Shown here in pieces: positions 3,466-47,182 of a stretch of 58,261 bases of DNA. The notes below the pieces were generated by a model. It had not been told where the DNA came from. It saw only the letters and a program-made list of their open reading frames with translations, and searched no databases. The DNA is taken from the IMG/VR virus record IMGVR_UViG_3300033141_003435, positions 1-58,261 of that record. One strand, given 5' to 3'. Position 1 is the first letter of the stretch; every line of letters begins with the position of its first letter. A program made the translations under genes and the position numbers. This DNA comes from a virus.

Positions 3466-4107
3466 TCAGGCACCAGACTTGTTGTCAACGACCTCCTCGG
3501 CGTCTTCCGGTGTAGCACGCACGAGATCGCACTTCTCACACTTGTAGACTTCGACCTCTTCCCAGTCATGAGCACACGCATCTACCGCTGACTGAGTGCG
3601 AGGACGCCTTGCGGCTTCCCATTCGTCGGGAAAGTCTTTCCAGTCTACCTTGGCGAAGATTTCCATGTCACGTAGCTCAGCATCCGTGAACGGGTAGCGC
3701 TCCTTGACATCTTCCTCTCCGAACTCAGTCTTGAACTCATCCACGAGCTTTGACAGCTTCAACAAGTCTGCCTCTCCACGATTCTCGTTCAAAAGCAGCA
3801 TCAACTCTTCAGCCGTGCGATCGTCTACCTCTCCAAGATTCTTCACATACAGCTTCTTCATTCCGAGCTGTTTGCAGGCTTTCCAACGATGTTCTCCGTC
3901 AATGATCTCCAGCCGATTCCGCCCGATGTCTCTGACGATCACAGGATAGAGACGGTTTCCGTAACGACGAATCGACGCTACAACAGCCTTGAAAACGTGC
4001 GGCTTTTGCTCGTTGAAATTCCATCGATTCGGGAAGACTCGATTGATGTCTACGATCTCTTCCTTTACTCGCTCGATGGACTGCTTGATTCTTCTAAGAT
4101 TCCGCAT
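3466..4107 (-). CDS. ParB/Srx-fold protein with C-terminal zinc motif (copy 2)
   Basis: About 213 residues. The ATG at 4107 is favoured because GAGGAG lies 9 bases upstream; ATG 4116 is an alternative. The N-terminal half has PNRWNFNEQ, PVIVRDIG and IIDGEHRWKA, the signature of the ParB/sulfiredoxin-like fold. A pair of Cys motifs (CAHDW and CEKC) near the C-terminus probably binds zinc. It is clearly a paralogue of the preceding gene, with the same motif order and spacing. DpdB of the bacterial 7-deazaguanine DNA system is a ParB-like partner of DpdA, so a similar role is inferred here. Confidence 0.65.
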   Translation of the reverse strand: MRNLRRIKQSIERVKEEIVDINRVFPNRWNFNEQKPHVFKAVVASIRRYGNRLYPVIVRDIGRNRLEIIDGEHRWKACKQLGMKKLYVKNLGEVDDRTAEELMLLLNENRGEADLLKLSKLVDEFKTEFGEEDVKERYPFTDAELRDMEIFAKVDWKDFPDEWEAARRPRTQSAVDACAHDWEEVEVYKCEKCDLVRATPEDAEEVVDNKSGA

Positions 4108-4691
4108 TTCTTGCATCTCCTCATTTTGACTTTCTTGAATTGATGTCTTGAGCACAAACGAGTCGACTCGGCCATCTCCTTCCACTCTTCAGGCGCTATT
4201 TCCTCGACTTCAGTTTCAGGCTCAAAGCCCTCACTCACCACGATCAACCTTTTCAACTGCTCTTCGTCATACGGAAGGACATCAAGCGGATTCTCGCCTT
4301 CCTCTTCCATTGTGTGAACAATCCTCGAAAGTGAGAGTCCCAGCTTTTCCACGTTAGCTTCACCTCGAGTTCTGTTGAGTATCATCATCAGTTCCTTCGC
4401 AAGGATGTCTGGAACCCGACCGAGATTCTTGACTGGAGTGAACTTCACCTTCAACTGAAGGAGCGCTTTCCAGCGATGCTCTCCATCAATGATCTCGTAC
4501 TTCCCAGACCCAGTTTCTCTCACAATGACTGGATAAATTTTCCCGAACTTCTTCAATGCGTTCTTCAGCGCGTTGAAAAGACGATCGCTCTGCACATTGA
4601 AGTTCCATCTGTTCGGCTTGATGTTCTTTGTCAGCACCAAAGTCTCTGGCGTTGACGCAATCCGCCTCTTCAGCTCTTCAAGCTCTTGCAT
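4065..4691 (-). CDS. ParB/Srx-fold protein with C-terminal zinc motif (copy 1)
   Basis: 208 residues, ATG behind AGGAGGAGAGA. It contains NRWNFNVQ, PVIVRETG and IIDGEHRWKALLQL in its first 100 residues and CSRHQF plus CKKCGIL at the end. These match the neighbouring copy, so the pair arose by tandem duplication and diverged. The start lies inside the end of the HIT-like gene (14-base overlap) and its end overlaps copy 2. Likely an NTP-dependent accessory factor for DpdA-mediated base exchange (inferred from location and the GEHRW motif). It could instead be a DNA-binding segregation factor. Confidence 0.65.
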   Translation of the reverse strand: MQELEELKRRIASTPETLVLTKNIKPNRWNFNVQSDRLFNALKNALKKFGKIYPVIVRETGSGKYEIIDGEHRWKALLQLKVKFTPVKNLGRVPDILAKELMMILNRTRGEANVEKLGLSLSRIVHTMEEEGENPLDVLPYDEEQLKRLIVVSEGFEPETEVEEIAPEEWKEMAESTRLCSRHQFKKVKMRRCKKCGILEESSSPSSE

Positions 4692-4986
4692 TCTCTCCTC
4701 CTAACAGCACATGCCAGTGCCAATGAAACTTGATCTGGCGTTGCTCCTTTCTGAATCCGACAAAAGCGTCACCGAATAAGTCGCGACAGATGTCCGTCAC
4801 TTCTTTCTCAACCATCTTCCAAAAGGTGCACGTCGGACAGGTGCACTGCAGATGAGACTTCAGCACAACCATAGGCACTTTGCATGTCAAACAGTCACAC
4901 ACGACATACTTGTCATCCTCGTAGTACCATCGTGTCTTCTTTTCAAGATTGCACAGCGGGCAGTCGCTACTTACAACTCGTTCCAT
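4678..4986 (-). CDS. HIT-like zinc-binding protein
   Basis: About 102 residues. ATG 4986 is chosen because the longer frame upstream runs backwards through the DpdA-like gene. The protein begins with a CPLC pair, has CDCLTC and CTCPTC pairs in the middle, and ends in FHWHWHVLLGG, which fits the HxHxH active-site motif of histidine-triad (HIT) nucleotide hydrolases and transferases. Histidine-triad proteins cleave or transfer nucleoside phosphoramidates. Its position in the 7-deazaguanine cluster suggests action on a modified nucleotide or adenylated intermediate, but this is a guess. Confidence 0.5.
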   Translation of the reverse strand: MERVVSSDCPLCNLEKKTRWYYEDDKYVVCDCLTCKVPMVVLKSHLQCTCPTCTFWKMVEKEVTDICRDLFGDAFVGFRKEQRQIKFHWHWHVLLGGENARA

Positions 4987-5002
4987 CGAAGCCTTCCGAT
5001 CT

Positions 5003-5914
5003 TCAGTCGTTGAACACCACACCTCGCCTCGCCCAGAACTTCGTAACGTAGTCTTCAAGCTCGCGATAGGCAAGCGCAGAAACAGCATCGACATAAACAG
5101 GATCGCGCGGATCAAAAGAAATCCCTTCAAGACCGATCTGCTTTGGATGTCTGTAAGCTACAACACCCTCGCTCGCATTCTCCCAGTGTATCCACTTCGT
5201 CTTTGGGTCAAAATACGTTGTTAATGCCCACCGAGTAAATGCCGACCAAGTTGTTGAATCCGCCGAGTAAAGCGGACAACCGAAAAGAAGGGAGCGCCGA
5301 AGTCCTGCGAAGAAGTGATATTTCTTCCCACGTTTCACTCCGTCCTCGACCATTTTACGCAGAAACTCAACAGTCCGTTGAGAATTGATCGACACTCCAG
5401 CAAAACCCTCTGAGAGAGCGATCCAATCGTACTCCTCGATCAGCTCCAAGTACGCTTCCTTCCCGATTGTTGGACGCCAAACAGGAATGATTCGCGCTCC
5501 GGTGTCTTCGAAACGTCTGCGATACTCCTTCACCTTCTCGTACCCGACAAAGTGATCAACATCCATCTCAACAGCGCAGTCGATGATCCCTGCCTGTGCC
5601 CCCGCTTTCAGGAGCACGCAGTACTTCGATACAAGCTCCTCTAGCTCGTGCTGATCAAAAGCATACTTCCCTCTACGACGGAGAATGTCGGTAACGAAGT
5701 AGCGATTGTTCAAAACCGCTACACCCGAATCAATCATCAACATCTCTCCGTTGCCCTTCACTCGCGTCAAGCCCTTCAGCACCTCCATCATTCCCCTCTT
5801 CGTAAAGGGAAACTCCCACAGATTGCTGAAGGCGTAGAGGCGATTCTTTGCGTGTGCGGCATCAAGAGATTTCGGCTGATCGTCCCAGTCAGCAACACAC
5901 AGAAAGATTCTCAT
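5003..5914 (-). CDS. dpdA: DpdA-like tRNA-guanine-transglycosylase family protein (DNA 7-deazaguanine insertion)
   Basis: 303 residues, ATG start. The TIM-barrel pattern of phage DpdA/TGT proteins is visible: MLMIDSGVAV (Asp62), AVEMDVDHFVGY (Asp118 and Asp120) and GARIIPVWRP, then DWIALSEGFAGVS. DpdA enzymes exchange guanine in DNA for a 7-deazaguanine base. The gene closes the row of preQ0-synthesis genes, which strongly supports this assignment over a tRNA enzyme. The classical TGT zinc site is not evident, as is usual for DpdA. The subfamily cannot be assigned without alignment. Confidence 0.75.
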   Translation of the reverse strand: MRIFLCVADWDDQPKSLDAAHAKNRLYAFSNLWEFPFTKRGMMEVLKGLTRVKGNGEMLMIDSGVAVLNNRYFVTDILRRRGKYAFDQHELEELVSKYCVLLKAGAQAGIIDCAVEMDVDHFVGYEKVKEYRRRFEDTGARIIPVWRPTIGKEAYLELIEEYDWIALSEGFAGVSINSQRTVEFLRKMVEDGVKRGKKYHFFAGLRRSLLFGCPLYSADSTTWSAFTRWALTTYFDPKTKWIHWENASEGVVAYRHPKQIGLEGISFDPRDPVYVDAVSALAYRELEDYVTKFWARRGVVFND

Positions 5915-5924
5915 CAGTCATCCT

Positions 5925-6614
5925 TTACTCGTTGATCCATTTTTTCGCTCCTTCTATGATGGCTTTTGCTCTCTCACCTGTAATCTCACCTCTCTCTACC
6001 TTGTCAACGTATCGTGCGACATGCGTTGCGTTCTGAAATTGAGGAACGCCTTGCACGCCACACCACTTCAAAGCTACCCACCAACGGAAGCACGCCGCGC
6101 ACTTCATGCAGCGCCCACTTCTTGAAGAGTAGCATGAGAGCGTTTGCAGAAGTAGTCTATCTGCCTTCTTTCCAAGCTCCCGCTTGAACCATCTTACCGC
6201 ATCGAATTTGCTCCAACCCTGCTCGGCGAAGGGGGCCGCTACTCTAACAAAACGCCCGGCATAACGGGAAATGAAAGAAGTCATATCAGCGTGAGCGACC
6301 CTCGTATTGTCGTTCACACGATCATCAGACACTCCTCCAAGATACACAATGTCAGCATAGCGGCTGGCCCCCATCGCCAACAGCACGTTCCGAAACGGAA
6401 TGTGAGCGTCTGGTAACTCCCAATCTGTAAGCGTGTAGCTAAAGTCAACCTCTGTATTTTTGATAAGCTTCGACACTACTTCCAGCTCTTTGTGCGCGTA
6501 ACGATGTCCCAAGTTAAAATAGAGGGTACGTGGCTTCTTGAGATAGAAATACAGTATGAAGCTGTCCAATCCGCCAGAAAACAACAAAATCTCCGACTTT
6601 TTGCCTCCGACCAT
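5925..6614 (-). CDS. queC: QueC-like 7-cyano-7-deazaguanine synthase
   Basis: About 229 residues. ATG 6614 is chosen because GGAGG lies 4 bases before it, whereas the GTG at 6632 has no ribosome site. The N-terminus has the PP-loop LLFSGGLDSF for ATP binding. A zinc-type cluster C-x8-C-x2-C-x2-C is present near residue 170, as in QueC. QueC converts 7-carboxy-7-deazaguanine to preQ0 with ATP and ammonia. A second QueC domain sits in the next gene upstream (Gat-QueC), so the two probably carry out successive steps. It follows a 180-base structured leader. Confidence 0.75.
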   Translation of the reverse strand: MVGGKKSEILLFSGGLDSFILYFYLKKPRTLYFNLGHRYAHKELEVVSKLIKNTEVDFSYTLTDWELPDAHIPFRNVLLAMGASRYADIVYLGGVSDDRVNDNTRVAHADMTSFISRYAGRFVRVAAPFAEQGWSKFDAVRWFKRELGKKADRLLLQTLSCYSSRSGRCMKCAACFRWWVALKWCGVQGVPQFQNATHVARYVDKVERGEITGERAKAIIEGAKKWINE

Positions 6615-6795
6615 GTTTCCTCCAAAAATCACCTAATGTCCTCGATCCTCCACGAAGTTTTTTATCGCTTAAATATCTAAGTATTAACGCTACCGAAAAC
6701 TTCGTGGAGAACTGTTCTCACAAGTTAGCATTTTATCGTGTAACCTATTTATTTTCAATAGGTTACATAGCCTCCCTCTCGCAAATCGTTTATTT
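6615..6795 (-). promoter_or_regulatory. structured leader between Gat-QueC and QueC genes
   Basis: This gap holds no gene. It contains an 11-bp hairpin at 6739-6767 (TGTAACCTATT with a 7-base loop) and a 14-bp stem formed by 6648-6661 and 6696-6709 around a 34-base loop. A GAGAAC-T-GTTCTC palindrome lies at 6707-6719. Neither stem is followed by a T-run on the minus strand, so they are not ordinary terminators. The element ends about 35 bases before the queC start and may be a cis-acting RNA controlling queC. It does not match the preQ1-I consensus closely. Confidence 0.4.
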
Positions 6796-8280
6796 TCAAT
6801 CATTTACAAGCCTCTTGAGAATCTCTTGCACCGAGTGTCTGGGCGGACGCATCTTAGATTTCATCCAAGGAGCCACATAGAGCTTCTTGTAGTCTGACGC
6901 GTAACGCGTCGCGTCCGTAACTCCTGCTTTTTCAAACGCCATTCGTCGAAGAGTGCAAGCTCCACAGACTCCACAAGCCTTTCCATCCTTCGGCGCGTTG
7001 TCACAAGAGTAAGTGATGTTGTACGGAACTTCAAGGTAGCTTCCGAGCTGTATGATCTCTGTTTTCATCAATCGTTCGAGGGGCATAACGAGTTTCGGTC
7101 GCATCAGCGTTCCGTAGTCAGAAAGCTCATTGAACTTTTGGAAGAACAGAATGGAGTTGTCTGGATAGCTTCCCTCCTCTTCCAACGTCCAGCCTGCCGT
7201 AATGTACTTCGCTCCCTTCGCTTCAGCGACCGCCATCAGAGAAGCTATCATCACGAGGTTGCGAGCAGGAGTCCAGCAGATCGTAGATTTCAAGTTTTGT
7301 CTCTTAGCTTTGGGCACAGGAAGACTCTTCTCAGTCAACACGCTGTGTCCGAGAGCACCGAGCCACTTCATGTCGAGAAACATGAACTCAACTCCAAGAT
7401 CAACGGCAATGCGCTTAACAGCCCGCCTCTCTCCCTCTTCACTCTTCTGCCCGTGATCAATGTGGCAAAGCACAACGTCTTTATGCCACAACTTCTTACA
7501 TACGTACGCCGCTGTCGTTGAATCTATCCCACCGCTTGAACAAACGAGCACTTTGTCTCCTTGAGCAGGAAGTTGAGAGATGAGCTTTGTCTGTAGCTCC
7601 TGAAATTTGAACTCCCTTTTGTCTACGTCGTACGTGCCACAGGTGTAGGACTCAACCTGTCTCCAGAACGGAAAGGCATGATCTCCGAAGATTGTGCGAA
7701 CAAATCTTTCTTCGCTGAGGATGAAAAACAGTTCGTCTGTTTCGCCGACAACCATAGTTTTGAAGTCTTTGATGAAGTGCAGACACCGCCTCTTAATGTC
7801 GTACAACAAGTAGGCGAAGCCCCCACTACACTCCTTAAAAGCCTTTAACAAGTCTCCAAACTTCTGATAGAGAAGAAACGGGACTTCGCTGTCTATCTCT
7901 GTTATCGGCTCAAGCTTGTGCTGTTTGATCAGCTCTTCGTCATTCGCAACTACACCGTTATGAGAAATGACGTGATAGTCACGAATAATGGGCTGCACAG
8001 ACCTCTCATCAAAGCTTCCCACTTCAGTCAGAGGTTGCGCTCGACAGTTCCAGATAAGAAAGTCTTCGGGCTCAATGCCATTGACAAACTGTCTCCACTC
8101 CGGTGAGGCGAGCACTTTACTCGCGGTTGTGGGACGCTTTAGCGTTTTGATACGACCCGACACCTTGACATCAACAATTCCGAAGGCGTCCTGTCCACGC
8201 TTTTCTGTCTCCAAAACCATGTGCTCAAGGAGACGCCCATCTACCTTTCTGTAAAAGACTGCTCCTCCGATTCCACACAT
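6796..8280 (-). CDS. gat-queC: Gat-QueC: glutamine amidotransferase fused to QueC-like domain
   Basis: 494 residues. The protein starts Met-Cys-Gly-Ile-Gly, so Cys2 becomes the class II glutaminase nucleophile once Met is removed. Residues 1-235 form the Ntn glutaminase domain (SHNGVVAND near 107). Residues 240-494 form a QueC-like domain with PP-loop SSGGIDST at 248 and zinc ligands C426, C436, C439 and C442. Gat-QueC proteins make the formamidino group of archaeosine from preQ0 in some archaea, and Escherichia phage 9g, whose DNA carries dG+, encodes one. Together with a separate QueC this points to an archaeosine-type base in the phage DNA. Confidence 0.82.
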   Translation of the reverse strand: MCGIGGAVFYRKVDGRLLEHMVLETEKRGQDAFGIVDVKVSGRIKTLKRPTTASKVLASPEWRQFVNGIEPEDFLIWNCRAQPLTEVGSFDERSVQPIIRDYHVISHNGVVANDEELIKQHKLEPITEIDSEVPFLLYQKFGDLLKAFKECSGGFAYLLYDIKRRCLHFIKDFKTMVVGETDELFFILSEERFVRTIFGDHAFPFWRQVESYTCGTYDVDKREFKFQELQTKLISQLPAQGDKVLVCSSGGIDSTTAAYVCKKLWHKDVVLCHIDHGQKSEEGERRAVKRIAVDLGVEFMFLDMKWLGALGHSVLTEKSLPVPKAKRQNLKSTICWTPARNLVMIASLMAVAEAKGAKYITAGWTLEEEGSYPDNSILFFQKFNELSDYGTLMRPKLVMPLERLMKTEIIQLGSYLEVPYNITYSCDNAPKDGKACGVCGACTLRRMAFEKAGVTDATRYASDYKKLYVAPWMKSKMRPPRHSVQEILKRLVND

Positions 8281-8282
8281 TT

Positions 8283-9104
8283 CTACTCCCCCACTCGTAG
8301 GTTGACGTACAACTCTACGATCAGTTTAACGACACTGACGACCCACTCCTTTTCAAATGTCTTCTTGGGACAAGTGCTCATTGTGCAAGGGTCGTCAGTG
8401 AGTTTTACGAAAGCCGGACTGTTGGGACGCTTGAAGATTTGTATCGGACTCAGCTTACAAACAAGAGGTGCATCCAGGCACAGCTTCGGGATGTCCTTCT
8501 TTTTGAGAATCGGACATTTGTACAGCACGTCTCCGTTTTCGACTTTGAATTCGTTCTTGGTAAACTCAGGCTTCAACTGGCGGCGCTTACGATACTCAAA
8601 CTCCCCCGGATAAAGAAAGATGAACGGGCGGGAGTTGCAAACACCACATTTCTTGCATTCGCCGATATCCTCAAACTTCCCGCCCATCCAGTAGAGTTCG
8701 TCGTAAATCTTGTCAGTCAGTCTGTCTTTCTCCCTGACTCCACGAATCTTCTCTTGCACCCGCCACTCGACAATCTCTCCAAACTCTCCCAGCGCTTCGC
8801 GCAAATCTGAAGCTAGGCGCTGTACGTCAGTGTCGAATTTGCACGTGTAAACGTCGAAAGAGATGTATCCGTGCTCTGGATAAGTGTGAAAGGAGCAATG
8901 CGAATCGGCAATCAGAAAGACTCCCGAAGCTCCCTGAGGATAGTAGTCCCACTGGGTGTAGTTAAGAATCATCTGTTGGTGCTTCATCAAGAGCTTGGCG
9001 ATGATGTTCTTCAACTGCCCTGTGTTCGCGACAATGCTCGCAGCACGCATGTCCATCCAGCAGTCTACCATCAAATGCTTTGATTTTGGATCGTAAATTT
9101 CCAT
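8283..9104 (-). CDS. S-adenosylmethionine decarboxylase-like (SpeD family) protein with Cys-rich C-terminal extension
   Basis: About 273 residues. ATG 9104 is preferred over GTG 9110 because of the GAGGGG ribosome site. The first 95 residues carry ADSHCSFHTYPEHGY and DVYTC. Ser68, His73 and Cys88 have exactly the spacing of the pyruvoyl serine, processing His and proton-donor Cys of bacterial AdoMetDC, with Asp replacing the usual Glu before Ser68. Residues 120-273 are an added Cys-rich domain (CKKCGVC, then further Cys). Phage SpeD homologues are known to have changed substrate. Within this cluster it may decarboxylate AdoMet or another substrate used in base tailoring. Confidence 0.75.
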   Translation of the reverse strand: MEIYDPKSKHLMVDCWMDMRAASIVANTGQLKNIIAKLLMKHQQMILNYTQWDYYPQGASGVFLIADSHCSFHTYPEHGYISFDVYTCKFDTDVQRLASDLREALGEFGEIVEWRVQEKIRGVREKDRLTDKIYDELYWMGGKFEDIGECKKCGVCNSRPFIFLYPGEFEYRKRRQLKPEFTKNEFKVENGDVLYKCPILKKKDIPKLCLDAPLVCKLSPIQIFKRPNSPAFVKLTDDPCTMSTCPKKTFEKEWVVSVVKLIVELYVNLRVGE

Positions 9105-9106
9105 CG

Positions 9107-9664
9107 TCACCCCTCGAAATACTTGAAGATGAAAAGCTCCTCAGACGGGTCTTCGTATGTGAGTTTGAAGCCGTCTTCCGCCGCAATGCTGCTAAGAACT
9201 TCTCTCCAAGTGTTGTACGACCACCACGTTATGTGAGACGGATCGTTGTAGAACCACTTGTGCTCGATAGAGCAAAATCCGACGACAACACACATCGACG
9301 AAACTCGAGTGAACTCTTTCATCGTTTTGTAGATGTCCAAAGTCGTGAGATGCTCAAGAAGATCAAACGAGATTGTGCACTCAAACGCGTCATCTCCTCC
9401 GACCATCTCGGAAAGAATGCGCGCATCTCCGAGCTTGATCAACTCTGGGAGCGGACAGCGCTTGACAATCTCTTCGTTGTACTCGACACCTAAGACTGTC
9501 TTCCCCAAACTATGGAGAAGGTGTAGCCCTTCAATGCTTTCGCACGGACAAAAAAGAAAGCTCTTCATGTAGTCAAGCTTGCTTTGATGCTCCTCCCAAA
9601 ACGCTATCTCCGAGCGTCGCAACCCCCCGTATCTTTCATAGTACTTCTTGTCAAAACCAGACAT
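9107..9664 (-). CDS. class I SAM-dependent methyltransferase-like protein
   Basis: 185 residues, ATG behind AGGAGGAGAAG. A Rossmann-type layout is visible: a FLFCPCESIEGLHLLHSLG segment in the place of motif I, VLGVEYNEEIV (acidic residue after strand 2), LGDARIL, and CTISFDLLEHLT, typical of type-11/12 methyltransferases. The motif I glycines are poorly kept, so it may act on an unusual ligand or be inactive. It lies between the SpeD-like and radical SAM genes and probably modifies the deazaguanine base or a side-chain precursor. Confidence 0.55.
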   Translation of the reverse strand: MSGFDKKYYERYGGLRRSEIAFWEEHQSKLDYMKSFLFCPCESIEGLHLLHSLGKTVLGVEYNEEIVKRCPLPELIKLGDARILSEMVGGDDAFECTISFDLLEHLTTLDIYKTMKEFTRVSSMCVVVGFCSIEHKWFYNDPSHITWWSYNTWREVLSSIAAEDGFKLTYEDPSEELFIFKYFEG

Positions 9665-9673
9665 CTTCTCCTC

Positions 9674-10687
9674 CTAATCTGAGCGGTGCTGAAAGTAGTC
9701 TTGCACTTTCTTGAGTGCCCGATCGACACCCAAATGTTTGTACTTCTTGTAGACCCACTCCGTCTCGACCTGACAGTTCCAATAGCATCCGTGACACTGC
9801 GCCTTAAAATCGTGCTTCCAGTCTAGGTGTATCCTTCCGAACGGTATCTCTCTGACACTGGCCCACTCGAGAACGTTGTATCGACGAATCTTGTTGCCCC
9901 GAAGGTGCAAACAAGGTCGCAGTGTTCCATCCGCGTCAATCACCAAGTTCGTCATTCCCAAACATCTGTAACGATACTCGTCTGGACAGACGTTGGATGC
10001 AAACTTGAGCAGATACTCTGAGGTGTTGTGGATGAGGTATCCCTCCCTCTTCATTCTCACGAGCCTCTTCATAACAGCGTTCAACGCGTGCCAGTCAGAC
10101 ATACGAAACGCAAACTTGCGATCGTAGAAGCCGAAGTCATAGTCGTGTGACGGATAAGCGATGTAGGGCGTTATTTCCGACCAACAACCCTCCTTTGATA
10201 AGAGCTTGACAAGCATGGTCGCGCCCTTGTAGTTCTCACGATCGAGAGTAAGCGTTGCGTGTAAGTCTTCCACACCCAAACGCTTAGCGACTTCGATCAC
10301 TCTTAGAGCGTTGCTCGTCTTTCGCGCTCTATCTTGACACCCCATGGGATCGGCTGAGAGACTAAGATTCTTCAACCCGCAAGCCTTAAGCTCGCGGATA
10401 TACTGTTCGTCAAGCAGCATCCCGTTTGTCACAATAGCATAGCTTAGGTCACCTAAATGCTTGACGAAACGCTTCAATCGCTTCTTCCCCCAAACAGTTA
10501 CGTCCCCTCCCAGTATGACGATAAACGAGTCGCTGAAGTGTCTCTTCAAAACAGCGATGACCCGATAGACATCCTCCTCGGTAAGCTCATCAAACTGATT
10601 GTCTCGAATACGACAGTACTCGCACCTCAGATTGCACCTCCGCGTCGGTAACCAGGTCACAACGGGTGGTTTTGCAAAGACACTCAT
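9674..10687 (-). CDS. radical SAM enzyme with SPASM-like C-terminus
   Basis: 337 residues. ATG 10687 overlaps the TGA of the preceding gene (ATGA) and has GGAGGAG upstream. The N-terminus has CNLRCEYC, the CxxxCxxC site of the 4Fe-4S cluster that cleaves AdoMet. GGDVTVWG, TNGML and LSLSADP follow the usual radical SAM barrel order. The C-terminal third carries CPDEYRYRC, LRPCLHLRG and CHGCYWNC, which look like auxiliary cluster ligands of a SPASM domain. It is distinct from the QueE in this cluster, so it likely performs an additional step on the base. Confidence 0.75.
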   Translation of the reverse strand: MSVFAKPPVVTWLPTRRCNLRCEYCRIRDNQFDELTEEDVYRVIAVLKRHFSDSFIVILGGDVTVWGKKRLKRFVKHLGDLSYAIVTNGMLLDEQYIRELKACGLKNLSLSADPMGCQDRARKTSNALRVIEVAKRLGVEDLHATLTLDRENYKGATMLVKLLSKEGCWSEITPYIAYPSHDYDFGFYDRKFAFRMSDWHALNAVMKRLVRMKREGYLIHNTSEYLLKFASNVCPDEYRYRCLGMTNLVIDADGTLRPCLHLRGNKIRRYNVLEWASVREIPFGRIHLDWKHDFKAQCHGCYWNCQVETEWVYKKYKHLGVDRALKKVQDYFQHRSD

Positions 10688-11391
10688 TGCTCTCCTCCAA
10701 TCCAAAAGAAGCAATCGTAGGTGTCTCTCACAATTATCTCCTTTACACTTCGTCCAAGCTTCTTGCCCAGCACTTCAATGGAGTCTTCGTGAAACATCTG
10801 CACATGTTCGCGGTTGTAAGACATCTCAAGCACATCCCACCTGAAGTCGGGAAACATCGGCACAATCCCGAAGAAGTCTCCATCAAGCGCCTTCCCCAAA
10901 TGCTCAACAAATGCACTCAGATCAATGATGTGCTCAAGCGTATGTGAACAGATAATCACGTCAAATCTTTCCCCAAACTCAGCCCACGCAAAAAGATTCT
11001 CTGAAACATCGATGAGATCGATGCGATGGCTCCGCGCCTCCAGCATATCGTCGTCTGTATAGAAATCGGCGGCGACTAAGTCCCAATTGCGCCGTCTTTC
11101 TCGTATCTGACGAAGCGTATGCTGGGACTTGCCCGCACCGATGTCAAGCACCGCAAACTTGGGACGACGTATGACGTTAAGCCGCTTCAACACCATCTCT
11201 GTGTTCAATCGATTTAGCCATTTGTACACTTCCAACCGCTCTTCTATCCACTTCGCGTCTTCTCCAAGTCTGTAGTCAACTCTCTCGGGGTTGACGTTCC
11301 ATACAAGTTCGCAAGAGAAACACTTACGAAACGCCCCTTCGCGCAAACTCCCCCACGAGTCATCTCCACACAACGGGCAAACGTTTCTCAA
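10684..11391 (-). CDS. zinc-ribbon methyltransferase (type 11)
   Basis: 235 residues with a TTG start preceded by CGGAG; the start overlaps the stop of the HAD gene. Residues 1-30 form a two-pair zinc ribbon (CPLCGDD and CFSCELV). A class I methyltransferase fold follows: FAVLDIGAGKSQHT (motif I), LVAADFY, and FDVIICSHTLEHI (motif IV and post). This architecture is common in methyltransferases acting on sugars or small molecules. It is the second methyltransferase of the cluster. Confidence 0.65.
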   Translation of the reverse strand: MRNVCPLCGDDSWGSLREGAFRKCFSCELVWNVNPERVDYRLGEDAKWIEERLEVYKWLNRLNTEMVLKRLNVIRRPKFAVLDIGAGKSQHTLRQIRERRRNWDLVAADFYTDDDMLEARSHRIDLIDVSENLFAWAEFGERFDVIICSHTLEHIIDLSAFVEHLGKALDGDFFGIVPMFPDFRWDVLEMSYNREHVQMFHEDSIEVLGKKLGRSVKEIIVRDTYDCFFWIGGEQ

Positions 11392-11990
11392 TGCTCCGAT
11401 TTTCCTTTCATTTCGACCATAGGAAGCACAAAAGTTTTGGGGCGTTCAAACGCCCCCGCCTTAGCCAGCGTGTCAATGATGATCTTGATGTAAGTTATCG
11501 CTTCCTCCTTCAAATCTTTGTCTCGAAGAAACTCGCCTTGCGCTGAGACTTCGAGTCCGTGTTTCGAGATTCGCACAACATAGCGATCAGGGAGCTTCAG
11601 TACCAACTTGGAATCCTGGAGGCGCTCATTGTGGAGATACGCAAAAATCCACATCTCTTCGCTTGACTTTCGCTCGTGAATAAACAGCCCCCTCCTCTGA
11701 GGGAAGTTGCACGTCGCGTGATCGTCGACGTAAAGGTCAGCTTGAGGTTTGTCAAACTTCAGCTCGTGGTACTTCACACCCCAACTCGCCAGCCACTCCT
11801 TTGTCACCTTCACTACGCCCTTGTCAGAGCTTCGGCGAGATGTAAAGAGTATGATTTTGTGCCCCGCATTATAGAGCGCATTAACAAGAGCGATGTTCTC
11901 TTTGTTTGGAACTCGAGAACGAAACGCTTCGACAGAATGGGTCGGAGGAGCATCACACAGTATTCCGTCAATGTCGACCACGTAGACCAT
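11388..11990 (-). CDS. HAD-like phosphatase
   Basis: About 200 residues. ATG 11990 shares a base with the upstream TGA and follows GGAGGAAGG. The start VVDIDGILCD is HAD motif I (DxD), IILFTSRRS is motif II, and LYVDDHATC is motif IV. The remaining 80 residues form a small alpha/beta extension of unknown role. Members of this kind remove phosphate from nucleotides or small metabolites. Beside a phosphoribosyltransferase-FolE fusion it may dephosphorylate a pterin or nucleotide intermediate; that is inference. Confidence 0.6.
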   Translation of the reverse strand: MVYVVDIDGILCDAPPTHSVEAFRSRVPNKENIALVNALYNAGHKIILFTSRRSSDKGVVKVTKEWLASWGVKYHELKFDKPQADLYVDDHATCNFPQRRGLFIHERKSSEEMWIFAYLHNERLQDSKLVLKLPDRYVVRISKHGLEVSAQGEFLRDKDLKEEAITYIKIIIDTLAKAGAFERPKTFVLPMVEMKGKSEH

Positions 11991-12940
11991 CACCTTCCTC
12001 CGATCAAGCGAAGAAACTCCTCTTTGACTTTGTCTTCGAGGAAGTTCCCCTGCATCGCTGAAGTTGTCATGACAGAAGCTTGCTTCTCAACACCTCTAGC
12101 CATCATACAAAGATGCTGAGCTTCGATGACAACTCCGACTCCCATGGGGCGCAACGTTTCTGTAATAGCACTTGCTATCTGTTGTGTAAGTCGCTCCTGT
12201 ATCTGCAGGCGTCTCGCATAGCACTCAACAAGTCTTATCAACTTCGAAATTCCGACAACTTTGTCTTTGGGAAGATAGCCGATATGCACTTTTCCAAAGA
12301 AGGGCATCATGTGATGCTCACACGTTGAGAAGAACTCGATGTTCTTCAGCACTATCATCTGATCATAGTGAAGCGTTTCAGAGAACTGAGCTTGAAGTTT
12401 GACGATGGCAGAGATGTTGTCGCGATACCCACCGAAGAGCTTGCCCCAGCTCTTAACGACTCTTGTCGGCGTATCCTTCAACCCCTCTCTGTTTGGGTCA
12501 TCTCCGATGTACTCGATGATTCGTCGTACGCTATCTTCGATTTCTCTCGGAGACTCCCAGGGAAACACAATCCACTTGCCGCGCGCCACCGTTCTGAGGA
12601 AGATGTCGGGCTTGATCGCCGCTCCTTCCTTCACGTACAACGCCGCCGTCAAAAAGCCCTTCTCAACATACGGACGAATCGTCTCCCCACTATCAACAAT
12701 GTCATCCACAATCACAGTGCGAGAAACATCGGGGGACGAATCAAGCGCCTCTAAAGTTCTCACGATTTCTCGAGCAACGAACCACCCTCCGACAGGAATT
12801 CCGAACACGGTTCGCAGCCCTCTTCGTGCGACTTCAATTGTCAGCTCGTTCCTTAGCTCATCGCAAAGCATTCCCAGCCCTTTCCACGAAAGAGCTATCT
12901 TATCTGCAGTATCTTGTGAAGTTGAAGACTGAGCCTCCAT
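11990..12940 (-). CDS. folE: phosphoribosyltransferase-GTP cyclohydrolase I (FolE) fusion
   Basis: 316 residues, ATG behind GGAGGGAAGG. Residues 1-125 are a type I phosphoribosyltransferase domain with the PRPP loop RTVIVDDIVDSGETI at 75-88. Residues 130-316 are GTP cyclohydrolase I: TPTRVVKSW, STCEHHMMPFFGKVHIGY (Cys207, His209/210) and HLCMMARGV (Cys278) give the zinc site and active centre. FolE opens GTP to dihydroneopterin triphosphate, the first step of the queuosine/preQ0 path. The fused phosphoribosyltransferase could supply guanine nucleotide by salvage or recapture released guanine. The fusion is unusual. Confidence 0.85.
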   Translation of the reverse strand: MEAQSSTSQDTADKIALSWKGLGMLCDELRNELTIEVARRGLRTVFGIPVGGWFVAREIVRTLEALDSSPDVSRTVIVDDIVDSGETIRPYVEKGFLTAALYVKEGAAIKPDIFLRTVARGKWIVFPWESPREIEDSVRRIIEYIGDDPNREGLKDTPTRVVKSWGKLFGGYRDNISAIVKLQAQFSETLHYDQMIVLKNIEFFSTCEHHMMPFFGKVHIGYLPKDKVVGISKLIRLVECYARRLQIQERLTQQIASAITETLRPMGVGVVIEAQHLCMMARGVEKQASVMTTSAMQGNFLEDKVKEEFLRLIGGR

Positions 12941-13506
12941 CCTTCCCTCCGTTTCACAATTTCAACGCACCTTCTAATCTCGTCTGGGTCATTGTCTTTC
13001 GGCTGAAGGAAAAGATGAAGGCCCTTGTCGGTTGACGCCCTTTCGAACTCCTCCAGCTCGCTATCTGTGTGGTTGTCAAACACCACTTTGACCTCTTTCG
13101 CCAATTGAACGTTGTAAGCCGACCCTCTTTTCGGACTGACCGTAACCCAATCGACATAGCACTCCAACCATCGAGGGGAGTTTGTTCCATTAGTTTCGAC
13201 CGCTATCCACCGCACGCCCCTCTCACGTACGCCGCAAACGAACTGCATCATAAGCTCATCGTCTTGTATCGTCGGCTCCCCTCCGGTCAACACTATGCGC
13301 GGAACACAGTACGACGCGACTTTAGTTATCAACGCACCGACTGTGTATTTCTTTCCTGACTTCCAGGCGTATTTCGTGTCACACCAGGAGCAACGAAGAT
13401 TACATCCAGCGAACCTCACAAACACAACAGGCAACCCCGTCCAAGCTCCCTCTCCTTGTATGGAGTAGAAAACCTCATTTACCTGCAGTTTCTTTGGCTT
13501 TGACAC
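12895..13506 (-). CDS. queE: QueE, 7-carboxy-7-deazaguanine synthase
   Basis: 203 residues. GTG 13506 is chosen because GAGGAG lies 5 bases before it and the product then begins near the conserved YSIQGEGAWTG. CNLRCSWCDTKYAW is the radical SAM CxxxCxxC motif. VLTGGEPTIQ, AVETNGT and VTVSPKRG complete the QueE order. It converts 6-carboxytetrahydropterin to 7-carboxy-7-deazaguanine. The 3' end overlaps the next gene by 46 bases. Confidence 0.9.
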   Translation of the reverse strand: MSKPKKLQVNEVFYSIQGEGAWTGLPVVFVRFAGCNLRCSWCDTKYAWKSGKKYTVGALITKVASYCVPRIVLTGGEPTIQDDELMMQFVCGVRERGVRWIAVETNGTNSPRWLECYVDWVTVSPKRGSAYNVQLAKEVKVVFDNHTDSELEEFERASTDKGLHLFLQPKDNDPDEIRRCVEIVKRREGWRLSLQLHKILQIR

Positions 13507-13909
13507 GTCGTCTCCTCGGCCAGACAATCTTCTGCTCGTTGTACGTACAACTGGCGTTGCTGCTCTCCCACACAGTGACACTCCAAAGCTTGCAAATTTT
13601 CTTTGCCTCAAAAGGAGCTAGAAGCTTTTGCAGCTCCTCGTAAATCCACTTTGAAAGATTCTCTGCAGTCGGATTGAGTCCCTCGGGGAGAATACGATTC
13701 AGATATCCGTGGTCAAGTTGTGACGTTACCTTCGTGATGTAGCGTTTGATGTCTCTGAAGTCGAGTACCATGCCGATCTCTCGCGTTTTGTTGGCGACAA
13801 TAGTCACAGCCACCTTCCATGTATGCCCGTGCAACGCCGCACAAGCTCCATGATAGCCCTCAAGGTGGTGGGCCGCCGCAAAGTCGCTTTCCAAAGTCAA
13901 TGCAAACAT
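13475..13909 (-). CDS. queD: QueD, 6-carboxytetrahydropterin synthase
   Basis: 144 residues starting at ATG 13909 (MFALTLESDF); the longer upstream frame runs through another gene and is ignored. DFAAAHHLEGYHGACAALHGH supplies the Cys and His ligands of the PTPS/QueD zinc site. LDFRDIKRYI, LDHGYLN, NPTAENLSKWI and VWESSNASCTY follow in family order. It makes 6-carboxytetrahydropterin from dihydroneopterin triphosphate, the product of the nearby FolE. It is translated before QueE with a 32-base overlap. Confidence 0.9.
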   Translation of the reverse strand: MFALTLESDFAAAHHLEGYHGACAALHGHTWKVAVTIVANKTREIGMVLDFRDIKRYITKVTSQLDHGYLNRILPEGLNPTAENLSKWIYEELQKLLAPFEAKKICKLWSVTVWESSNASCTYNEQKIVWPRRRRVKAKETAGK

Positions 13910-13919
13910 CTTGCCCTCC

Positions 13920-14132
13920 CTACAGCTCTCGCATCTCTCTGTCCTTACGCTTGTTGACACTGAGTTGCAGAACGCCAGCCACCATCCAAAAGATGAAGGT
14001 GGCTCCAATGCCCGCCAGCGGACACCACCAACGAAGCCCCAAGAGCCACCACAACACCTTGATCGTCGCCAGCAAGCCGAACAGTGTACCGACAAGCGCA
14101 ACCAAAGCAGGAGTTGATTCACCGACTCTCAT
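13920..14132 (-). CDS. small two-helix membrane protein
   Basis: 70 residues; its ATG overlaps the stop of the ParB-like gene by ATGA. Two hydrophobic segments (about residues 9-31 and 36-57, rich in Trp, Leu and Ala) separated by a short GLRWW turn suggest a hairpin in the membrane, followed by a charged tail (NKRKDREMREL). It could be a holin-like or accessory membrane protein, but nothing more specific can be said. Confidence 0.5.
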   Translation of the reverse strand: MRVGESTPALVALVGTLFGLLATIKVLWWLLGLRWWCPLAGIGATFIFWMVAGVLQLSVNKRKDREMREL

Positions 14133-14752
14133 TCCGTCACTTCCTGTATCGTGTAGAGTATCTCGGGGTGTCGCTCCTGAAGTCCCTTGACCAGAGACGC
14201 CACCTCGTCTGAGACAGAAGGCCAGAGGCCAGCCGGAATGCGAATCGTCACTTCGACATTCTGTATGAGTCGCTCCCCTTCCGCCTCTTCTCCCCCTTCT
14301 GCCATCTCTTCGCTCGCAGGAGGTTCGACATCAATCTGTGCCCAGTTTCGACGCTCCTCCAACTCGTCAGGAGTGAAAAGAGTGTCGAGATCAACTTCCT
14401 CCATCTCTTCCAGAGACTTGGCAAGTTGGTATCTCGCCAATTCGTCATACCCGTTGAACTCCGGGATACGATTCGATGCCAGCGAGTACCACTTCGCCTG
14501 CGCCTCCGTCAAATCGCTTCTGTCGATAACAGGCACTTCCGGAAGATTCAGCTTCTGTGCCGCCTTCCATCGAGCGGCCCCGGCAAGAATCACTCCGTCG
14601 CGCCAAACAACAATCGGGTCGATGAACCCAACCTTGGTTATCGACTCACACAGAGCGTCTATGCCCCTCTCTGTGTGGATGCGGCAATTCCAATCAGGCT
14701 CCTTGAGTGAGTCGACAGGAACAACCGCTCTCGATGACGCTGCCTCAACCAT
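14129..14752 (-). CDS. ParB-like nuclease/Srx-fold protein
   Basis: About 207 residues. ATG 14752 is preferred because GGAGG precedes it. PDWNCRIHTERGIDALCESI, FIDPIVVW and VILAGAARWKAAQKL match the ParB N-terminal domain of phage regulators. The usual GHGR becomes AGAAR, so the canonical catalytic or CTP motif is altered. An acidic linker (about 125-160) and a C-terminal alpha/beta region follow. It heads the modification cluster after the terminase. It is distinct from the two tandem ParB-like genes at 3.5-4.7 kb, which carry GEHRW. Confidence 0.65.
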   Translation of the reverse strand: MVEAASSRAVVPVDSLKEPDWNCRIHTERGIDALCESITKVGFIDPIVVWRDGVILAGAARWKAAQKLNLPEVPVIDRSDLTEAQAKWYSLASNRIPEFNGYDELARYQLAKSLEEMEEVDLDTLFTPDELEERRNWAQIDVEPPASEEMAEGGEEAEGERLIQNVEVTIRIPAGLWPSVSDEVASLVKGLQERHPEILYTIQEVTE

Positions 14753-14827
14753 TTCAACCTCCAATTCAAAAATATGTTATCACGAGTCGGATACGCGCCC
14801 GACAACCGTGACAACGACGTTTCAAAA

Positions 14828-41060: not shown

Positions 41061-41350
41061 CCAATTCCCCCACCAAACCAGGGCTTGTCGACCTTTCTTA
41101 GCATCGCTATCTCAAGCTCCTTCAACTGCTTGTCTTTCACATACAAAAGCTGGGTGAGCTTTCGCACTTTCTCTTCCAACATCCTCAACTCAGAAGAAGC
41201 TTCCTCTTTCCAATCTTCGATCGCCATCAACCGTCGTTGTACCGCCGTCAGCGTCGTGCGCACCGACTCCCGAAACTGCTGTGTCTCCTGCTCCATTTCA
41301 CTGAGCAAGTTCAACAGCACTCGCAACGAAAGCTTTTCTTTCTCATCCAT
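41057..41350 (-). CDS. coiled-coil protein after DNA polymerase
   Basis: 97 residues from ATG 41350, overlapping the polymerase stop by 8 bases, with GGAGGAGG upstream. Continuous charged helix with heptads (LSEMEQETQQFRESVRTTL, LRMLEEKVRKLTQLLYVK). Probably an oligomerising or polymerase-associated factor; not identified. Confidence 0.55.
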   Translation of the reverse strand: MDEKEKLSLRVLLNLLSEMEQETQQFRESVRTTLTAVQRRLMAIEDWKEEASSELRMLEEKVRKLTQLLYVKDKQLKELEIAMLRKVDKPWFGGGIG

Positions 41351-43790
41351 GAAATTCGACCTCCTCCAGACTCCCCCACCTCTCACCAATCGAAATATCG
41401 ACCCGCAACGGAAACGACATAAAGTCAAACTGAAGAGATTCGGGAGCCTGCTTCATAAGCTGCACGATTTCTTCGACCTCCTCAGGAGGCGCATCAACGA
41501 CTATCGAGTCATGCACAGTCGCTACCAGCAACGACTTCAAACCATTGACTCGCAAGTACTCAGCGATCTCATTAAGCACAATCAAATTCAAGTCCGATGC
41601 TGTCGACTGAATCGGGAAATTGAATGCTTTCCGAATAGCGTCCGCCTCTTCGTAGCCCTGTAAGTTGCGTCGCCTCCCAAAGAAGTTCTCGATCACCTTA
41701 TTACCGGCTCGAATCCGATTTCTAATGCCGTCCTGATACGCACGCACTCCTCTAAAAACTCTAAAGTAGTGCGACATAAACTCTTCCGCGTCCGCCAAAG
41801 AAATTCCTGTTGACTCCTGTACCGTATATGGTGACCCACCGTAAATCAACGCAAAGTTCACCGCTTTTGCGATTCTTCTCTCTTCCGTCCCCTCCATCTC
41901 CTCTGCTTTGTATTCTCTGCCCTCTCTGATCGACTTGATTCGCGCCGCCGTTTCAGCATGTATATCACGTCCCGCCTCAAACGCCGCCTTGAGTTGAGGG
42001 TCTCCGCTTGCATAAGCCATTACCGCCATCTCCATTTGAGAGAAGTCAAGTTGTACAAGCTTTCCTCCCTCAAATCGAGAGCGAAAACAATCTCTGACTT
42101 CATACGGTAAATTCTGCATGTTGGGGTTCGAAGAGTTAAGTCTCCCACCTGAGGTGAAGAAGCCGTAGCTTCCATGCACCAACCCGTCGACATTCTTCTC
42201 TGCGAAATTCTTCAGATAAGTATTTAGCGTCTTCACCGTCCTACGATACTCAATCAGCCTTCTCGCAAAATCGCAACCCCTCGACGCGTAATTCTCAAGT
42301 ATGTCAGCTGTAAGTTGCGGCTGCCCCCGAGCCGTTCTCGAAATAACAGGCATATGATACCTGTCAATCAACACCTTCTTCAGTTGGGGAAGAGAGTTAA
42401 ACGAAAACGTCTCCCTTTCGTCATCCTCAATCATGGGATCGGCCCTAAGTTGACGAAGCAACGAATCCACTCTCGCTTGAAGCTCTCTCTGCTTTGCGTC
42501 CAACACCCCAAAATCAAGACAAAGGCCGTTCACTTCTATGTCTGTCAGTGTAGAAATCGTAGGGTTCATAATCTCTCTGTAGAGAAACATCATGCCCTTC
42601 TCTTTCAACTTCTCTTCAACTTCGGAAACCAGCCTCAACGCAAAAATGGAATCAAGAGCACAGTACTTAAAAAGCTTTTCTGTGTCTTTCTCCTCTAAAT
42701 TAGAGTAGTCACCGCCGATCAAATCTTCCTCGTAGCCCCCCTCTTCAGGAAAGTACTGCCACACCAAAGACTTCAACGCCGTCGACTGCTGAACTCCCTC
42801 ATTCAACAAGTGTTGTGCTGCCTGAGGGTCAATGTAGAAGCCCTCAACCCTCACTCCGTACTTCACACGCAGCCAAAGCATATCGAACTTGGCGTTTATC
42901 GCCACCTTCTTTGCTTTGCCGTTAAACAGATGCTGAAGCTTGCTCACCAAAAGATTGGAGCTACAAAACTCAGGAGCTTCTCGATGCTCCAGCGGAATCA
43001 CACAACACTCACTTTCAGTCGCAATCGACATACAAAGTATCCTTGCGCCCGATTCCCACGGATCCAAGCCCGTTGTCTCAAGATCGAACGCAAGCCACTC
43101 AGCGTCTCGAGCAAGAGATATAAACTCGTCTAACTCACGACAAGTCTTCACCACAGTAAAAGGGATGCTATCCCGAGTAGGCGCTCCACGCGAGAGAAGT
43201 TTGAGCACCTGTCGAAGCTCTCTTCTCCACTGATGTATGGCATTTGGAGAACGACAAACATAGCTGGGATGCCACAGAAAAAGAAAGACTGAGTCGCCTA
43301 TCTTTTTTACTGTCCCTCTTACGCTCCCAATCGAACGTGCCCCAGCCACCGCCTTGGCCGCTATCCCTCCCAAAACGATAACCACTTTATGATTGAGCAA
43401 CTCCTCCCACTCTTCCTTGTGCTGCTCCATACAGTAGCTTTGAGTGGCCGGATCAGGGTCAGCATTACCTGGCGGTCGACAATGTACAACGTTGGTGAAA
43501 CAAATCTGTGTGTCGTCAAGCCCCAACACTCTCAGCTCCCTACGCAACAACTGCCCCGATTGTCCGACAAACGGAATTCCTTTTATGTCCTCGAACTGTC
43601 CAGGAGCTTCCCCCAAGCAAACCAGCTCAGCGTCTTTGATTGGAATCGAAGCCGGAACTGGAAGTTTTCCGTACAACTTGCATTTCTTCTGCCCGCAACG
43701 CTCAGTAGGACGTGTTGTCCCTCGCTGACGATTCTCAACCCCATCAAATTGCTTCTTAATCAAGTCTGATGGCCTCGGCAATCTGCTCAC
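41343..43790 (-). CDS. DNA polymerase I with N-terminal uracil-DNA glycosylase domain
   Basis: 815 residues, GTG start with GAGAGGAG upstream. Residues about 30-200 are a family-4-type UDG: CGQKKC, GEAPGQFEDIKGIPFVGQSG, FTNVVHCRPPGN, C136-region Cys and FLWHPSYVCR, including four Cys for an Fe-S cluster. Residues 215-400 are a 3'-5' exonuclease (FDLETTGLDP). Residues 410-815 are a family A polymerase: LVQLDFSQMEMAVMAYASGD (motif A), AKAVNFALIYGGS (motif B) and TVHDSIVVDAP (motif C). All catalytic residues appear intact. A fused glycosylase could remove uracil ahead of synthesis. Confidence 0.92.
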   Translation of the reverse strand: MSRLPRPSDLIKKQFDGVENRQRGTTRPTERCGQKKCKLYGKLPVPASIPIKDAELVCLGEAPGQFEDIKGIPFVGQSGQLLRRELRVLGLDDTQICFTNVVHCRPPGNADPDPATQSYCMEQHKEEWEELLNHKVVIVLGGIAAKAVAGARSIGSVRGTVKKIGDSVFLFLWHPSYVCRSPNAIHQWRRELRQVLKLLSRGAPTRDSIPFTVVKTCRELDEFISLARDAEWLAFDLETTGLDPWESGARILCMSIATESECCVIPLEHREAPEFCSSNLLVSKLQHLFNGKAKKVAINAKFDMLWLRVKYGVRVEGFYIDPQAAQHLLNEGVQQSTALKSLVWQYFPEEGGYEEDLIGGDYSNLEEKDTEKLFKYCALDSIFALRLVSEVEEKLKEKGMMFLYREIMNPTISTLTDIEVNGLCLDFGVLDAKQRELQARVDSLLRQLRADPMIEDDERETFSFNSLPQLKKVLIDRYHMPVISRTARGQPQLTADILENYASRGCDFARRLIEYRRTVKTLNTYLKNFAEKNVDGLVHGSYGFFTSGGRLNSSNPNMQNLPYEVRDCFRSRFEGGKLVQLDFSQMEMAVMAYASGDPQLKAAFEAGRDIHAETAARIKSIREGREYKAEEMEGTEERRIAKAVNFALIYGGSPYTVQESTGISLADAEEFMSHYFRVFRGVRAYQDGIRNRIRAGNKVIENFFGRRRNLQGYEEADAIRKAFNFPIQSTASDLNLIVLNEIAEYLRVNGLKSLLVATVHDSIVVDAPPEEVEEIVQLMKQAPESLQFDFMSFPLRVDISIGERWGSLEEVEFHG

Positions 43791-47064: not shown

Positions 47065-47182
47065 TTGTACCCTCTTTAGACTCTTGTTCTAGAGAACATG
47101 TCAGTAACTCATCTCTTAAAAGAGATGAGTTACTGACACGCCCTGCGGGCGTCAACTGAGATAGGAACTCAAACGGTGACAT
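47057..47182 (-). CDS. possible 41-residue coupled ORF after the UvsW-like gene
   Basis: ATG 47182 lies inside the end of the helicase gene with GAGGT 5 bases upstream; its TAA overlaps the start of the next small frame. It contains the 18-bp inverted repeat at 47100-47137 within its coding part (VSNSSLLRDELL). It may be a coupling peptide or not translated at all. Confidence 0.3.
   Translation of the reverse strand: MSPFEFLSQLTPAGRVSNSSLLRDELLTCSLEQESKEGTSV
47085..47152. repeat. cluster of perfect palindromes behind the UvsW-like gene
   Basis: TGTTCT-AG-AGAACA lies at 47085-47098. GTCAGTAACTCATCTCTT, AA, and its exact complement lie at 47100-47137 (18-bp arms). ACGCCC-TGC-GGGCGT lies at 47138-47152. 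None is followed by a T-run on either strand. They may be RNA-processing hairpins, protein sites or recombination targets. A CCCTCTTTAGAC word is repeated just beside them. Confidence 0.7.

Follow-up and report, generated by a model that had tools for sequence, protein, structure and literature searches.

A viral 7-deazaguanine gene array in which Gat-QueC and DpdA are accompanied by a divergent QueC-family protein and a putative base-tailoring module

Results

The array and its core 7-deazaguanine pathway

The window analysed here is the whole of IMG/VR virus record IMGVR_UViG_3300033141_003435, 58,261 bases with a G+C content of 49%. It carries a cluster of 7-deazaguanine genes arranged as one minus-strand array, from QueD (start at 13909) through to DpdA (end at 5003), in which neighbouring genes overlap or almost touch, the exception being a 163-base gap before the gene of a divergent QueC-family protein (hereafter divergent QueC) at 5925-6632. 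The original prediction had placed QueD, QueE, FolE, QueC, Gat-QueC and a DpdA-like enzyme at 4678-13909. All these families are present on the minus strand at these coordinates, and the co-location of the named families is confirmed as far beyond chance. The same interval holds five genes that had gone unmentioned, encoding an HAD phosphatase, two methyltransferase-fold proteins (MT1 and MT2), a radical S-adenosylmethionine (radical-SAM) enzyme and SpeD, together with a phosphoribosyltransferase-like (PRTase) domain on FolE. Its 4678-4986 end is a small separate open reading frame (ORF), not part of DpdA, for which a Pfam search gave no match. A second contig (L004) carries the whole array intact at 99.6% identity; an assembly artefact was set aside on this ground, although a near-identical contig is not an independent observation. 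The QueD start is an ATG at 13909 preceded by GGGAGGG, and a GTG at 13506 is the probable start of QueE, which can be aligned with the QueE proteins of other loci.

FolE, QueD and QueE are encoded together with a QueC-type enzyme, and established homology assigns predicted functions to these proteins, to Gat-QueC and to DpdA. The window Gat-QueC has the N-terminal Cys, Arg (in CRAQ) and HNG of the glutaminase, and SGGIDS, PARN, Zn cysteines and the CDG-binding YPD (CDG, 7-carboxy-7-deazaguanine) of the QueC part; it is about 29% (28-30%) identical to phage Gat-QueCs over ~98% of its length. In DpdA the TGT-type catalytic aspartates D62 and D219 are invariant. The window DpdA is distant, with just one weak phage match, and the profile of its family matches only 7ui4, a solved DNA-guanine transglycosylase (E=5.5e-5), and no tRNA TGT. 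Single-protein scans of viral contigs with DpdA and SpeD returned the near-identical contig only. The pathway is complete and its motifs are intact, which supports the expectation that the virus by itself can make a 7-deazaguanine and place it in DNA. The PRTase domain of FolE has the motif VDDIVDSGET and could feed guanine that DpdA has displaced back into GMP and GTP. The same fusion was seen in other deazaguanine viral loci (27 locus records, some of them redundant), and a further 17 PRTase ORFs stand unfused in loci of this kind.

The same five activities (FolE, QueD, QueE, Gat-QueC and DpdA) make up the dG+ pathway of Enterobacteria phage 9g. That phage has one QueC, the fusion, whereas the window adds divergent QueC, radical-SAM, HAD, two methyltransferase-fold proteins, SpeD and the PRTase domain. 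When an E. coli queC mutant is given the 9g Gat-QueC and DpdA, dG+ is still formed (Hutinet et al., PMC6884629), so no separate QueC is needed. This weakens the division of labour first proposed for the window, in which two sequential nitrogen additions were shared out between QueC and then Gat-QueC, since the 9g Gat-QueC does both; the archaeosine chemistry of Gat-QueC itself is supported.

Divergent QueC forms a subfamily of its own

The second QueC-family protein is real, but it is not a canonical QueC. It scores 36.8 bits against the TIGR00364 QueC equivalog (cut-off 150.3) and has lost the YPDC and YxQxHxxE motifs, while SGGLDS, PFRN, SCY, the Zn cysteines and the Asp of YPD are retained. 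Its AlphaFold model (pLDDT 92.5) has QueC (2pg3 and 3bl5, top in Foldseek) and Cap9 as the nearest solved folds.

Profile scans of viral contigs with divergent QueC and DpdA, which give the best 80 matches, yielded about 150 loci, many of them fragments. Motifs were counted in 66 non-redundant divergent-QueC viral loci and in 32 canonical QueCs from the same sample. SGGxDS was found in all 66 divergent QueCs, the Zn motif in 62 and PxRN in 60, whereas YPD was found in only 4 (24/32 among the canonical QueCs) and YxQ..E in 5; the Asp of the YPD position (D108) is invariant in the divergent-QueC alignments. In a quick-search tree a branch with 100% support separates all 66 from the canonical QueCs and Gat-QueCs. 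Compared with canonical QueC (PF06508 cluster 1, PMC13329287), the divergent form therefore shares the fold, SGGxDS, PxRN, the essential SCY Tyr, the Zn cysteines and the YPDC Asp, but lacks the YPDC Tyr and YxQxHxxE and forms its own clade. The tyrosines of the two lost motifs are essential in E. coli QueC, of which the Y35A and Y131A variants are dead (PMC13329287), and the deazaguanine bound by Cap9 or QueC is read by the Asp, with the Tyr stacked on it (PMC13279940).

The protein-deazaguanylating enzymes Cap9 of CBASS and QatC of Qat are likewise divergent QueC scaffolds that use ATP chemistry for ends other than preQ0, and Cap9 is a close fold match. However, Cap9 keeps YxDC and QatC has long extensions, whereas the protein in the window lacks these motifs and lies in a viral DNA-modification context. 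PADLOC assigned it the generic QueC model only. A QatC/Cap9-type defence system was set aside, as the motifs differ; no partner protein, which in those systems has an N-terminal Gly, was noted, and none was searched for.

Divergent QueC lies beside another Gat-QueC in one locus (L223) and beside a plain canonical QueC in another (L029); since Gat-QueC or a canonical QueC is already there, it is not a mere QueC stand-in in these two loci. Lost motifs, a distinct clade, and radical-SAM and HAD partners that also occur beside QueC or Gat-QueC together suggest a changed role, that is, a further step rather than preQ0 synthesis. Among 50,697 phage records only 4 have divergent QueC. It is rare in cellular genomes (ten loci in one scan), mostly adjoining DpdA or in queD-queE operons. 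Two such cellular loci are a bacterial metagenome-assembled contig, with divergent QueC near queD, queE and a FolE2-type ORF (L247:9992-12963), and an Amycolatopsis scaffold, where it is near queD and queE (L248:8093-10711).

Divergent QueC travels with HAD and radical-SAM proteins

An HAD gene is present in 23 of the 66 divergent-QueC loci and in 0 of 46 non-redundant DpdA loci without divergent QueC (Fisher 1.3e-6). The two are adjacent or fused in 17 loci, with three QueC-HAD fusions (L013, L014 and L153). The phosphatase motifs DxDG, T/S-x-R, K and DD are all present in the HAD protein, with D7/D9, T51/R53, K82 and D90/D91 conserved.

The radical-SAM enzyme has C27/C31/C34 and, consistent with a SPASM/twitch-type domain, C251/C268/C307/C310, all invariant in 10 relatives. 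Its predicted model (pLDDT 80) gave SkfB, SuiB and BlsE as the best Foldseek matches. The fold search singles out no function, as maturases of ribosomally synthesized and post-translationally modified peptides, BlsE, viperin and MoaA are all similar. In a separate profile scan, family members scored at least 252 bits and other radical-SAM proteins at most 177 bits. Divergent QueC is present in 18/18 of the non-redundant radical-SAM clusters, DpdA in 17/18 and HAD in 16/18; 8 of the 18 came solely from this independent scan. The family had no match in the 50,697 phage records.

Sister clusters carry other methyltransferases, GT2 glycosyltransferases or an SDR, and these varying enzymes look like tailoring enzymes. 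One and the same Cys-rich C-terminal domain is attached to the HAD protein in two clusters and to an FkbM methyltransferase in another (L012:10947-11858, L224:12571-13203 and L236:12394-13056). Many large viral contigs (L171-L241) have a different system, in which several kb separate a QueD-like gene from a MoaA-like radical-SAM gene downstream of it.

SpeD and the methyltransferase-fold proteins

SpeD retains the processing Ser70, the catalytic His75 and Cys90, and Pro78, the residues of class 1b S-adenosylmethionine (AdoMet) decarboxylases; the Pro is a mark of true AdoMet decarboxylases (PMC10407285). It falls below the TIGR03330 cut-off (67.2 vs 75.65), and AdoMet decarboxylation is its predicted activity; SpeD homologues can be Arg or Orn decarboxylases. 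The class 1b core with its Ser, His, Cys and Pro is shared with phage SpeDs (PMC9992855, PMC10407285). Unlike them, the window protein has a long Cys-rich tail (~150 residues), a deazaguanine operon setting and no accompanying spermidine synthase (SpeE), none being encoded in the window. Relatives of the tail were looked for and none was found.

In 47 other viral records SpeD and MT1 had no relatives, and membership of MT1 and MT2 in the same family as the methyltransferases of L224 was not convincing. A SpeD scan of viral contigs returned ordinary short SpeDs, with a link to queuosine-type genes in L274 and L275 only. Here QueE, SpeD, a second SpeD-like ORF and SpeE follow one another with overlaps, QueE overlapping SpeD, and QueD and a FolE2-type ORF lie near them (L274:3044-9482); these fragments have no QueC. 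This is a second link of 7-deazaguanine with aminopropyl genes. SpeD also comes directly after a ParB-N domain protein in Pseudomonas phage ZRG1 (L261:5410-7255).

Table 1. Genes of the minus-strand array and the ParB-N genes next to it.
Feature	Coordinates	Strand	Evidence
ParB-N domain protein, directly upstream of queD	14129..14764	-	PF02195 6.5e-8
QueD (6-carboxytetrahydropterin synthase), 144 aa	13475..13909	-	PF01242 (PTPS) 1.4e-36; TIGR03367 above cut-off
QueE (CDG synthase, radical SAM)	12895..13506	-	PF04055 2.3e-11; CxxxCxxC as CNLRCSWC
FolE with N-terminal PRTase-like domain	11990..12940	-	PF01227 GTP_cyclohydroI 9.4e-71; PF00156 ~5e-5 on N-terminal part
HAD phosphatase with C-terminal extension	11388..11993	-	PHROG 1238 1.5e-22; catalytic motifs I-IV intact
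MT2, Zn-ribbon and class I methyltransferase fold	10684..11391	-	PF13489 2e-12; CPLC/CFSC, DIGAG, HTLEH motifs
Radical-SAM enzyme ('rSAM-X' family), twitch-like, four extra C-terminal Cys	9674..10714	-	PF04055 1.5e-15
MT1, small class I methyltransferase fold	9107..9664	-	PHROG 27380 1.2e-4 only; DLLEH motif
SpeD / S-adenosylmethionine decarboxylase (residues ~12-108), Cys-rich C-terminal extension	8283..9110	-	PF02675 5.8e-20
Gat-QueC, class II glutaminase fused to canonical QueC	6796..8280	-	PF06508 1.7e-49; GATase_7/6; PHROG 10428 full length
Divergent QueC-family protein ('QueCs'), 235 aa	5925..6632	-	PF06508 48.7 bits (gathering cut-off 22)
DpdA, DNA 7-deazaguanine transglycosylase	5003..5914	-	PHROG 887 1.7e-14; DSG, MDVD, DSTTW motifs
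Small ORF, CPLC and histidine-triad-like HWHWHVLL motif	4678..4986	-	Translation; possibly part of operon
ParB-N domain protein, C-terminal Cys cluster, downstream of dpdA	4065..4691	-	PF02195 1.1e-9

Discussion

A proposed pathway to a hypermodified base

On balance we favour the view that the virus encodes in this array a pathway sufficient in itself, with a tailoring module attached, which would replace guanines of its DNA with a hypermodified 7-deazaguanine, probably heavier than dG+. The HAD, the two methyltransferase-fold proteins, the radical-SAM enzyme and SpeD are outside the dG+ pathways described in the literature cited here. In the proposed scheme, FolE, QueD and QueE would take GTP to CDG, Gat-QueC would convert CDG via preQ0 to the archaeosine base with nitrogen from glutamine, and DpdA would swap the base into viral DNA. 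Divergent QueC, HAD and radical-SAM, the genes linked across loci, would act as a separate module of putative tailoring enzymes. The retained Asp most likely still lets divergent QueC bind a 7-deazaguanine, a carboxylate or amide of which it may adenylate with ATP for coupling to a nitrogen nucleophile; QueC uses ammonia in this way, and Cap9 an amine of a protein. Building or trimming of the attached group would fall to the radical-SAM and HAD proteins, while the methyltransferase-fold proteins, together with decarboxylated SAM from SpeD, may add alkyl groups. The final base is therefore probably heavier than dG+; the archaeosine-type chemistry originally proposed is available through the Gat-QueC motifs, but archaeosine would probably not be the end product.

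A more specific version, which we put forward tentatively and think unlikely, is that divergent QueC works as a ligase, forming an amide or amidine between a 7-deazaguanine carboxylate and an amine that radical-SAM and HAD have built or modified, with decarboxylated SAM from SpeD used by a methyltransferase-fold protein for aminopropylation. Were it true, viral DNA would contain a polyamine-like hypermodified 7-deazaguanine, a base class not yet described. For the general scheme above, CmoY of phage S-B43 sets a precedent, as an ATP-dependent ligase that extends a phage base at its carboxyl handle (PMC12783734). The CmoA-CmoX-CmoY carboxymethylcytosine system also has a phage-supplied modified SAM cofactor and ParB-domain neighbours; its base and its enzymes are different from those of the window, and the likeness is one of analogy only.

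Several observations weigh against a tailoring module. In most loci with divergent QueC, among them minimal gut-phage clusters (L006) and the bacterial folE2-queD-queE operon of L247, no other QueC homologue was found, and for this reason its role may simply be to turn CDG into preQ0 or an amide. The radical-SAM and HAD hidden Markov models were partly trained on loci with that very neighbourhood, which bears on the co-occurrence counts. Furthermore, among the sampled deazaguanine viruses SpeD, MT1 and MT2 are confined to this one, so that their position in the array is what argues for a part in base tailoring; SpeD is the weakest link of the mechanism.

Competing explanations

The first alternative is that divergent QueC simply acts as a stand-alone QueC, converting CDG to preQ0 and leaving Gat-QueC the amidine step only, with dG+ as the product. 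Both proteins are present with intact ATP-binding and Zn motifs, the YPD-position Asp is kept, and in most of its loci no QueC other than the divergent one was found to accompany QueD, QueE and FolE, so that it must act usefully on CDG or its products. We nevertheless regard this explanation as unlikely, since the 9g Gat-QueC works without a second QueC (PMC6884629), the CDG-binding YPD is in the window Gat-QueC and not in divergent QueC, and Y35 and Y131 are essential in QueC (PMC13329287). Moreover, it leaves the linkage with radical-SAM and HAD, the fusions and the canonical QueC of L029 unexplained.

It is rather less probable that the virus makes plain dG+ or dPreQ0, with SpeD, radical-SAM, HAD and the methyltransferases as unrelated auxiliaries and SpeD feeding host spermidine synthesis. 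SpeD does occur in phages as a gene of general polyamine metabolism (PMC9992855), it was found in 28 phage records, and the restriction of SpeD, MT1 and MT2 to this virus is in keeping with such a role. In contrast, bystanders would hardly give the co-occurrence seen for radical-SAM (18/18) and HAD (16/18), nor genes that overlap within one array, and another virus (L274/L275) has QueE overlapping SpeD together with a second SpeD-like ORF and SpeE.

Equally doubtful, in our estimate, is that divergent QueC carries out another of the CDG conversions reported for phages, for instance decarboxylation or the formation of an amide, and that mixed small 7-deazaguanines are inserted as a result. Four further phage 7-deazaguanines and their enzymes were reportedly described by Cui and colleagues in 2023, with dCDG and dDG among the phage bases. 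Divergent QueC is often the sole QueC-family gene with QueD, QueE, FolE and DpdA, as this would have it, and dADG is a known phage base (PMC6884629); the partnership with radical-SAM and HAD is left unexplained.

That the pathway acts on host or viral tRNA and not on DNA is highly improbable: DpdA is a TGT-fold protein, but its family profile matches the DNA enzyme and no tRNA TGT, the window has no tRNA genes, and the neighbours are packaging and ParB genes.

Implications of a putative tailoring module

In the phage 7-deazaguanines known so far, the C7 substituents are small. A recurrent viral module of divergent QueC, radical-SAM, HAD and DpdA that is almost absent from isolated phage records predicts larger, as yet unseen, DNA bases, which could shield viral DNA against restriction and nucleases. 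Divergent QueC also offers a concrete test case for functional change of the QueC scaffold, and SpeD within the array is a candidate for the use of decarboxylated SAM in DNA modification.

Other features of the window

Three ParB-N proteins flank the cluster, two beyond the small ORF (3466-4691) and one at 14129-14764; two of the three have a C-terminal Cys cluster, and ParB genes adjoining dpdA recur across many viral loci. At 47169-49541 a probable intein, with matches to Hint_2, Intein_splicing and LAGLIDADG_3, interrupts a superfamily II helicase ORF. At 41343-43790 a family A DNA polymerase carries an N-terminal uracil-DNA-glycosylase domain (PF03167 3.5e-22), and seemingly the same arrangement is present in L013, a locus that has the module.

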